Shown one piece after another: positions 3,171-41,246 of a DNA stretch of 46,634 nt (the first letter of the stretch is position 1; each line of letters opens with the position of its first letter). The stretch is from Candidatus Peregrinibacteria bacterium CG10_big_fil_rev_8_21_14_0_10_55_24 (GTDB taxonomy: Bacteria; Patescibacteriota; Gracilibacteria; Peribacterales; Peribacteraceae). A program made the translations under genes and the position numbers. The notes beneath the pieces are model-generated. The model was not told where the DNA came from and searched no databases. It worked only from the letters and a program-made list of their open reading frames with translations. The stretch spans positions 1-46,634 of the forward strand of contig PFDV01000007.1 of NCBI GenBank assembly GCA_002772745.1. Direction: 5' to 3'.

Positions 3171-3176
3171 TACACT
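3171..3176 (+). promoter_or_regulatory. -10-like TACACT, six bases before the next start codon
   Basis: TACACT is followed by only CGTGCC and then ATG at 3183. If this is a -10 box the transcript would begin at or next to the start codon (leaderless). The -35 position (about 3148, TTCGTT) is weak. The same spacing recurs at 14884, 19423 and 35091. Confidence 0.4.
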
Positions 3177-14861: not shown

Positions 14862-14889
14862 TTGGCACAACTGCGATATTCGATACACT
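14862..14889 (+). promoter_or_regulatory. Promoter TTGGCA-N16-TACACT, six bases before a GTG start
   Basis: TTGGCA (14862-14867) and TACACT (14884-14889) are spaced 16 bp. The hexamer ACAACT then leads to GTG at 14896. The expected transcript would start at or next to the start codon. This supports GTG 14896 as the start of the next gene. Confidence 0.55.
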
Positions 14890-27198: not shown

Positions 27199-27238
27199 GC
27201 ATCCCTCCTCTCCTCCTCTTTCGCCTCCAGTACATCCC

Positions 27239-27535
27239 ATGGATCTCTCTCGCGTCATCATCGGTCCCGTTGTGACGGAGAAGGCCGAGCGCCTGAAGAC
27301 ACAGCATGTGTACACGCTGCAGGTGGATGCACAGGCGACCAAAATCGATGTTTGTGCCGCACTGCGTCGCTACTACGATGTGGAAGTGAAGCAAGTACGC
27401 GTGCTCTGCGTCAGACCGAAGTTCCGTGCGTTTGGACGTTCCGGTGTCATGCGCAAGAGGCACCCCGCGAAGCGTGTTCTTGTTACGCTCAAGCCCAAGA
27501 GTAAACCGCTCGATATTGCTACCATCAAAACGTAA
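27239..27535 (+). CDS. rplW: Ribosomal protein L23
   Basis: 98 residues. VIIGPVVTEKAERL and YTLQVDAQATKIDV are the L23 core, and RPKFRAFGRSGVMRK is the basic loop that lines the tunnel exit. It is the docking site for trigger factor and SRP. The 40 bp before it (GCATCCCTCCTCTCCTCCTC...) are pyrimidine-rich, with no purine-rich SD. Confidence 0.96.
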   Translation: MDLSRVIIGPVVTEKAERLKTQHVYTLQVDAQATKIDVCAALRRYYDVEVKQVRVLCVRPKFRAFGRSGVMRKRHPAKRVLVTLKPKSKPLDIATIKT

Positions 27536-28389: not shown

Positions 28390-28407
28390 TCCTCCTCTTC
28401 CTCTCCC

Positions 28408-33705: not shown

Positions 33706-33727
33706 GCTTTTTCTCTCACTGTCTTTC

Positions 33728-34072: not shown

Positions 34073-34096
34073 TTCCCCCATATTCTTTCTCCTCTC

Positions 34097-34735: not shown

Positions 34736-35068
34736 ATGCAACCGCAGGAACAGCCCCTTACCATCGGCACGGTCGTGGATTTGCGACATTTCCACAGCTC
34801 CATAGCGCCGGAGATGATCCATCCAATGGTTGCGCGGTGTCCTCTTGTTTATCAAGGGGCTTTGGAGGTACGTGCAGGGCTTAAAAATGGATCGTCGTGG
34901 CAATCATGTACCGCGCGCTGTGCGCATTACAACAACAGGATCTGCAACGTGCTCACGGCTAAGAATAGGGAGATTACGCGGTGTCCGATCCAGGATCGCA
35001 AGGGATATGTCTACACCGAGGAAGGGAGTGCGCGTCATTCCATCGCCGTTAGGGTAGAGCGACAATAA
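34736..35068 (+). CDS. Unknown protein, Cys-containing, between S5 and DJ-1
   Basis: 110 residues. I do not recognise it. It has seven Cys-region features (CPLVYQG, SCTARC, RICNV, RCPIQD), with five Cys in the second half spaced in a way that could bind a metal. No signal peptide or membrane segment. It starts 18 bp after S5 on the same strand and is in the place of L30, but shows no L30 likeness. A second overlapping frame (34830-35057) is basic and also unassigned, so coding status is uncertain. Confidence 0.4.
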   Translation: MQPQEQPLTIGTVVDLRHFHSSIAPEMIHPMVARCPLVYQGALEVRAGLKNGSSWQSCTARCAHYNNRICNVLTAKNREITRCPIQDRKGYVYTEEGSARHSIAVRVERQ

Positions 35069-35090: not shown

Positions 35091-35096
35091 TATACT
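35091..35096 (+). promoter_or_regulatory. Extended -10 box TGC-TATACT, six bases before ATG
   Basis: TGC TATACT then GGGTTC leads into ATG 35103. Extended -10 promoters need no -35 box. The transcript would start at or near the start codon. Confidence 0.5.
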
Positions 35097-35102
35097 GGGT
35101 TC

Positions 35103-35615
35103 ATGAAGCGAGCGCTCATCATCCTCGCGCATCAGGGATACCAGGATCAGGAGTACGCGGGAGTACGCAATGGCTTAGAAGAAACCGGTTTTTCGATCGT
35201 CATCGGCAGCACCATTGCGGGGATGTGTACGGGCAGATTTGGGGGAGCAGAGCAGACAGATGTTGCATTACGTGATGTTCGCGTAGGGGAATACGACTGC
35301 GTTGCATTCATCGGAGGACCAGGGGCCGCCTTGCTCAAAGAAGATCCGGAAGCACTGCGCATTGCGCATGAGACTGTGCGTGCCCAAAAGCCTCTCGGCG
35401 CCATCTGCATTGCGCCGCTCATTCTGGCGCGTGCGAAGGTGCTGGAGGGGCGGCGTGCTACGGTGTGGGATGGAGGCACGAGGGAGCAGATCGCTGAACT
35501 CGAGCGTTACGGAGCAATCTTCACTGGTGAATCCGTGAGTGTGGATGGCCGCATTGTCACGGGGGATGGTCCCGGTGCCGCGGAGGAATTCGGCAAGACA
35601 CTGGGGTCTCTCTAA
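35103..35615 (+). CDS. DJ-1/PfpI-family protein inside the ribosomal operon
   Basis: 170 residues. The nucleophile elbow is GAICIAPLILAR (Cys102) with the upstream FIGGPGAALL loop, Glu17 in DQEY as the usual acid partner and GDGPGAAEEFGKTL at the end, as in PfpI/YhbO/Hsp31-type proteins. Activity in this family ranges from deglycase or glyoxalase to peptidase and chaperone; it cannot be predicted here. It has its own extended -10 promoter and may be a stress gene placed within the translation block. Confidence 0.88.
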   Translation: MKRALIILAHQGYQDQEYAGVRNGLEETGFSIVIGSTIAGMCTGRFGGAEQTDVALRDVRVGEYDCVAFIGGPGAALLKEDPEALRIAHETVRAQKPLGAICIAPLILARAKVLEGRRATVWDGGTREQIAELERYGAIFTGESVSVDGRIVTGDGPGAAEEFGKTLGSL

Positions 35616-39722: not shown

Positions 39723-39742
39723 TATCTCCTCCTTCTCCCCTC

Positions 39743-40123: not shown

Positions 40124-40142
40124 TCCTTCTTTTCCTCCCCTC

Positions 40143-40559
40143 ATGGCCGAGACCACTCCACCAGCACCGGAAGCAACCCCCAAAGTTGTTCGCAAGAAGA
40201 AGATCAAGCGCACCGTACCCAAGGCGCGTGTCTGTATTCATGCAGGAGAGAACAACACCATCGTCACGTTCACCGATCTGGAGGGGAACAAGCTGGCAGG
40301 TTCCAGCTGCGGTGCCGCAGGATTCCGCGGGACCCGCAAATCCACGCCCTACGCAGCCAAGGTCGCTGCGGAGAAGGCTGCGGAGATGGTACAAGCCTAT
40401 GGCGTACAGTCCGTGCAAATAGAGGTGAGAGGATTGGGCCCCGGTCGCGAGCAGGCGATTCGCGGTATCCAGGGCGCGGGCATCGATCTTGACGCCATTA
40501 TCGACACCACTCCCATTCCCCACGGCGGTTGCCGCCCACGGCGTCGCAGACGCGTGTAG
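40143..40559 (+). CDS. rpsK: Ribosomal protein S11
   Basis: 138 residues. RVCIHAGENNTIVTFTDLEGNKLAGSSCG, FRGTRKSTPYAAKVAAEKAAEM, VQIEVRGLGPGREQAIRGIQGAGIDLDAIIDTTPIPHGGCRPRRRRRV are standard. The 19 bases before the ATG (40124-40142) are all pyrimidines. Confidence 0.97.
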   Translation: MAETTPPAPEATPKVVRKKKIKRTVPKARVCIHAGENNTIVTFTDLEGNKLAGSSCGAAGFRGTRKSTPYAAKVAAEKAAEMVQAYGVQSVQIEVRGLGPGREQAIRGIQGAGIDLDAIIDTTPIPHGGCRPRRRRRV

Positions 40560-41201: not shown

Positions 41202-41226
41202 CCCACTGGAGACGCATTCTCCGTTC

Positions 41227-41246
41227 TTCCCTTCCCTTCCCTTCCC
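41227..41246 (+). repeat. (TTCCC)4 tandem repeat abutting the rpoA start
   Basis: Four copies of TTCCC run directly into ATG 41247, replacing any Shine-Dalgarno. It is the clearest case of the pyrimidine-rich leaders seen before many genes in this operon. A change in copy number would not change the protein. Confidence 0.75.

Follow-up and report, generated by a model that had tools for sequence, protein, structure and literature searches.

Introduction

Few stretches of bacterial RNA are as strongly conserved as the anti-Shine-Dalgarno (anti-SD) sequence of 16S rRNA, and initiation on leaderless mRNAs is known from Actinobacteria, Deinococcus and many archaea. Candidatus Peribacter riflensis was tabulated in 2024 as an SD-scarce species without CCUCC (PMC10783764). 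Flavobacterium johnsoniae (Bacteroidota) initiates independently of SD, with an A-rich start context and a retained anti-SD (PMC6847099). Low local structure has been treated as the condition that permits SD-free starts (PMC3121790), and S1-dependent pyrimidine-rich leader elements have been described in E. coli (PMC3296737).

Here we analyze a window, the whole stretch of 46,634 nt, corresponding to contig 9 in a Candidatus Peribacteraceae (Patescibacteria) genome of 1.29 Mb (98.8% complete). A record under the name Candidatus Peribacteraceae matches its RpoA at 83% identity, and almost every one of the best 80 RpoA records carries the name Peribacteria, Peregrinibacteria or Patescibacteria. 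The genome resembles the P. riflensis case in its lineage, its altered anti-SD core and its rare SD motifs, and thus belongs with the SD-scarce class lacking CCUCC (class iv). With the Bacteroidota it shares mRNAs without SD, weak structure at the starts and S1 as a suggested reader. However, the Bacteroidota keep the anti-SD, leader most of their transcripts and favor A at -3 and -6, whereas the Peribacteraceae have C/T at -1 and -2, some genes predicted to be leaderless, and no enrichment of A (22% at -3 and 15% at -6 among 166 starts). As in the E. coli S1 leaders, a single-stranded pyrimidine-rich stretch lies 5′ of the AUG; that element stands 5′ of an SD, whereas the tract described here adjoins the AUG without one. 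The -10 box at -12 to -7 of first genes is a likeness to the leaderless systems, but that model covers part of the genes, and operon-internal genes need another route. Comparing the sequences of this genome and its relatives, we consider it probable that the tracts form the conspicuous extreme of an SD-independent initiation that is general in Candidatus Peribacteraceae, with SD loss extending to the sampled wider class.

Results

Pyrimidine tracts adjoin start codons in the ribosomal operon

We examined the spacers of the ribosomal operon, which the initial annotation had described as CT-only or nearly so. All features given here lie on the forward strand. The rpsK (uS11) tract at 40124-40142 is indeed all pyrimidine (19/19) and ends next to the ATG at 40143. 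Pure tracts also adjoin the ATGs of rpsS (uS19; 28390-28407, 18/18, ATG 28408), rpsM (uS13; 39725-39742, 18/18, ATG 39743) and rpoA (41224-41246, 23/23, ATG 41247), the last including the (TTCCC)4 already noticed. The rpsM tract had been placed at 39723-39742; it is present, with one A inside that interval, and the pure run begins at 39725. A run of 14 bases adjoins the rpsE (uS5) start (34083-34096, ATG 34097), a stretch of 18/20 precedes that of rplR (uL18; 33708-33727, ATG 33728), and upstream of rplW (uL23) a run of 21/21 (27202-27222) stops about 17 nt 5′ of the ATG at 27239. Runs of at least 18 pyrimidines occur five times in the 18.6 kb operon, where a first-order Markov model predicts 0.037; all but one of the five end directly at the base 5′ of an ATG.

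The description of the spacers as CT-only holds for rpsS, rpsM, rpsK and rpoA but not for rplB, rplO and secY (10/20 pyrimidines each) or rplP (11/20), which are ordinary. Over the 30 operon starts, the spacers average 14.2/20 pyrimidines; the rpsZ and rpmJ coordinates in this set are 1 base late, which leaves the picture unaffected. The accompanying claim that the operon lacks SD sequences is right for 28 of the 30 starts, the exceptions at -17 to -5 being rplP (GAGG) and rplO (GGAG). Upstream of rplO, the segment 35737-35760 holds GGGAGG and GGGAG about 12-24 nt 5′ of the ATG, and these are among the few SD-like sequences of the operon.

Shine-Dalgarno motifs are scarce in the family and the sampled class

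Genome-wide analyses were performed on a spread sample of about 451 kb, roughly one-third of the genome, and, for several relatives, on 80-160 kb per genome. Starts were computed calls from a coding-potential finder blind to upstream sequence, and the confident ones were kept. SD 4-mers at -17 to -5 were scored against shuffles of the same stretch. In two class members (G098 and G176) genes were called with TGA as a sense codon, since almost none are found in the standard reading, TGA being sense there. In f10 and f14, the families of these two genomes, long frames emerge only when TGA is translated, a trait shared with other Gracilibacteria; both families have A/T-rich starts, and the anti-SD varies there too.

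Scoring the sample, we find SD 4-mers at 12% of the starts compared with 7% after shuffling (z 2.9). This residue could reflect a few genes that still use pairing. The observed and shuffled fractions were 0.11/0.07, 0.05/0.04 and 0.07/0.07 in three other family members, and 0.02/0.01 and 0.00/0.01 in class members outside the family. The same method returned 0.66/0.26 for E. coli and 28/11, 17/7 and 51/18 (%) for three phylum members outside the class. E. coli and G363, the positive controls, both yielded their SD. The finder thus detects SD where it is present, in E. coli and in SD-using phylum members, and the loss holds for the tested class members.

Orthologous starts from up to 80 named relatives gave the same picture. 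An SD 4-mer was present at 1/73 starts of uS13, 4/56 of uS11, 0/77 of uS4 and 0/79 of rpoA; these starts are 4-9% G and 65-81% pyrimidine. The rpoA starts alone have a mean of 81% pyrimidine and 4% G, and 43 of the 79 reach at least 85% pyrimidine. At about -12 to -6, most genes thus lack a purine motif able to pair with the 16S tail. The absence of SD first noticed in one operon extends across the genome and the lineage, and a mere quirk of the ribosomal operon is rejected, tracts standing before about one-fifth of the genes genome-wide.

We also considered that the tracts might be a feature of DNA or transcription (strand bias, pausing or terminators) that lies at starts by coincidence. Most pyrimidine runs of at least 15 bases in the sampled genome, 89 of 115, are indeed more than 100 nt from a called start. 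However, 17 of the 115 lie just 5′ of a called start, within 5 nt and on its own strand, a position for which the available space predicts fewer than one (some 380 starts over 2 x 451 kb). The operon tracts, moreover, adjoin AUGs within the operon and occupy the same place in relatives. A coincidental origin therefore seems very unlikely to us.

The start context is G-poor, pyrimidine-rich and predicted to be unfolded

The stretch from -20 to -1 is 63% pyrimidine at 166 confident starts and 48-49% before internal ATGs. At least 85% pyrimidine is reached by 24 of the 166 (14.5%), against 0.2-0.4% of internal ATGs. The starts are low in G, and 81% of them in this genome have C or T at -1. The predicted folding energy from -20 to +20 is -4.7 kcal/mol at starts, compared with -6.9 upstream and -7.5 downstream, and it is -2.5 at tract starts versus -5.5 at pyrimidine-poor ones, in line with the earlier suggestion that the tracts keep the start unpaired. 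Low structure at starts is not special to this lineage, because E. coli, with SD in use, shows it too (-4.9 versus -7.5).

A class relative of lower GC, G051, is A/T-rich at the same position, with 7% G and an even stronger depletion of G. All-pyrimidine is for this reason not the conserved property; judged from these contexts, that property is a G-poor, unfolded start with a pyrimidine at -1. In this comparison the tract reads as the high-GC form of such a leader, an extreme of the context rather than a motif carried by every gene.

A different reading takes the tract itself as a dedicated initiation signal, recognized by S1 or another protein and replacing the SD of highly expressed genes. 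The genome does encode an S1 protein of 491 aa with four S1 stretches, a multi-domain form, which answers the question that the initial annotation had raised about its domain number. Tracts adjoin AUGs well above chance and are strongest before the ribosomal genes and rpoA, where relatives keep the property despite different letters; TCCTC and TTCCC are more frequent than in composition-matched shuffles. Against a dedicated signal, just 42 of 202 starts (about 20%) have at least 16 pyrimidines in their last 20 bases, both motif and spacing vary, and at this place G051 carries A/T instead of C/T. Such a signal is conceivable, but we rather doubt it and prefer the G-poor, unfolded leader.

The anti-SD has drifted together with its 16S trailer

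The 16S tail of this genome reads ...GGAACACUUCCUUA and ends in ...GGAUGGAACACUUCCUUA, with the anti-SD core CUUCC in place of CCUCC. CCUCC is missing from 37 of 39 family genomes (kept in G001 and G191), and its place is taken by CUUCC, UCUCC, UUUCC or GUUUCUG, whereas the 41 tails read from phylum genomes outside the class all have it. Within the class, the anti-SD is variable also in families f2, f4, f6, f10, f14 and f22. A trivial complementarity between tail and tracts, which would have refuted the initial annotation, does not exist, because the tail is itself pyrimidine-rich and its anti-SD has drifted.

The drifted tail raises the question of a variant SD, GGAAGU, matching it. The tail, ACACUUCCUU, would allow such pairing, and GAAGT, which is complementary to it, occurs 8 times upstream of starts in this genome against 2.5 expected. 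However, the count of GAAGT is 0 in G027, whose tail is identical; GGAAG occurs only 4 times against 2.6 expected; and the 4-mers GGAA, GAAG and AAGT are scarcer at -18 to -4 (0.07) than farther upstream (0.17). With no overall enrichment of GGAAG or GAAGU, a variant SD is largely refuted, and we give it hardly any credence.

Just past the usual 16S 3′ end lies UACCAGGGAA/G, which can pair with the anti-SD. Among 22 distinct family tails, the variable anti-SD base and its trailer partner form U-A in 12 and C-G in 8 and are unpaired in 2. The covariation score was reached by 0 of 500 shuffles, and a slid partner scored lower. It stems mainly from one variable pair, with about four changes on a 16S tree whose branches are weakly resolved, and G191 breaks the covariation. 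In G008, which has the most eroded anti-SD of the family (16S end ACGUUUCUGUACCAGGAAAC), GUUUC can pair with a downstream GAAAC; the energy model favors a different fold. Outside the family, f6 has GCCU/AGGC and f2 (G067) has UUCC/GGAA, and CUCC..GGAG occurs commonly elsewhere in the phylum, which makes the hairpin old. Since changes in the anti-SD are matched by changes in the trailer, a short anti-SD:trailer hairpin persists while the code for pairing with mRNA is lost. We infer, as the simplest role for this hairpin, the masking or the maturation of pre-16S rRNA; a limited literature search found no paper on anti-SD masking in precursor 16S.

SD motifs are missing as well from two class members, G037 and G051, that have kept CCUCC, so drift of the anti-SD is unnecessary for the loss of SD. 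This comparison of tails suggests that SD use was lost first and that the tail drifted later.

The trailer could also be imagined as part of a longer 16S 3′ end, in which GGGAA pairs with UUCCC of the tracts as an inverted SD. Its GGGAA(U) is the complement of TTCCC, a motif enriched 5′ of starts (29 versus 16.4) and repeated in the rpoA tract. The trailer of G029, however, is GGGAG, yet TTCCC is still enriched there (13 versus 5.4) and CTCCC is not (4 versus 5.2). The trailer is moreover already paired with the anti-SD, and it is removed in other bacteria. G029 rules this pairing out, and we regard an inverted SD as extremely improbable.

A bolder version of the hairpin reading is that it is kept in mature 16S rRNA, locking the anti-SD in cis, and that leadered genes start via pyrimidine-rich, G-free leaders with C/U at -1 and an altered initiator tRNA. 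We hold this combination to be unlikely. A 16S end at ...CUUCCUUA would support a processing hairpin, whereas an end beyond GGGAAU would support a retained lock; if the latter were true, the rRNA itself would have removed rRNA-mRNA pairing from a bacterial initiation system.

Many first genes of operons are probably leaderless

Checking the region upstream of first-in-operon genes, we find that 17% have a TANNNT box whose last base lies at -7, 10.5 times background. TGnTAnnnT, the extended form, likewise has its peak there (13/285). A -10 element must lie there for transcription to start at the start codon; these genes are therefore predicted to be leaderless, and on the placement of the box many first-in-operon genes probably are. 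Examples on the forward strand of the window are boxes at 3171-3176 (ATG 3183) and 14884-14889 (GTG 14896) and the extended box TGC-TATACT at 35091-35096 (ATG 35103), each ending at -7. The last belongs to frame 35103-35615, a predicted leaderless gene; this frame and the frame 34736-35068 lie between rpsE and rplO at the place of rpmD (uL30), and neither is a recognized ribosomal gene.

The -7 box stands 9-21 times above background in other family members and 3-9 times in SD-using phylum members. Because the latter have it as well, it is not an invention of the family; it is absent in the class members G037 and G051. In SD-bearing phylum members outside the class, boxes at -7 precede 17% (G317) and 42% (G295) of first genes. 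By these two genomes, leaderless genes may be widespread in the phylum.

The anticodon stem of the initiator tRNA is altered

Three G-C pairs in the anticodon stem aid P-site selection of the initiator tRNA, and a change similar to the one reported here is known from some mycoplasmas. In this genome the anticodon stem-loop is cgAGG-CUCAUAA-CCUcg, with A-U at pair 29-41 instead of the usual third G-C. The AGG/CCU stem is present in all 20 matched family genomes, including G000:C8:307473-307546, and also in f4, f22 and one f7 genome. GGG/CCC is found in f2, f6, f9, f15 and most f7 genomes. Pairing of a C at -1 with G37 of the initiator tRNA is rejected, the loop CUCAUAA having A37.

Discussion

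In high-GC members, the G-poor, weakly structured start stretch is filled with C/T, and all-pyrimidine tracts result. In the mechanism that we propose, ribosomes at operon-internal genes would bind the single-stranded leader RNA and settle on the nearest AUG, perhaps assisted by the four-domain S1. Leaderless mRNAs would be bound directly by ribosomes loaded with initiator tRNA. The anti-SD:trailer hairpin would be a maturation or masking element of pre-16S rRNA, and pairing with the trailer would then be what now constrains the anti-SD part of the tail. In the Bacteroidota arrangement, the anti-SD is kept and is sequestered by ribosomal proteins around bS21; here the anti-SD is not kept, and a bS21-like gene, a weak match, is encoded. 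The initial reading of the window is borne out in the absence of SD, the 16S tail and the unpaired start; the leaderless route, the anti-SD/trailer covariation and the initiator tRNA go beyond its content.

On SD-less or leaderless initiation in this lineage, our literature search turned up PMC10783764 alone. Its main text presents one species, in a table; the present analysis extends the drift to the family and adds trailer covariation, predicted leaderless promoters, start context and the initiator tRNA. The kind of system is thus already known; what appears new, within the literature searched, is a family-wide anti-SD drift compensated in the trailer, together with a leader of pyrimidine form and an altered initiator tRNA.

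A drifting anti-SD with a compensated trailer pulls apart two constraints, on pairing with mRNA and on pairing with the precursor, that ordinarily cannot be separated. The family would offer a naturally SD-less bacterium in which the 16S tail, the leader context and the initiator tRNA stem show three linked changes, and these make SD-less start finding testable by comparison.
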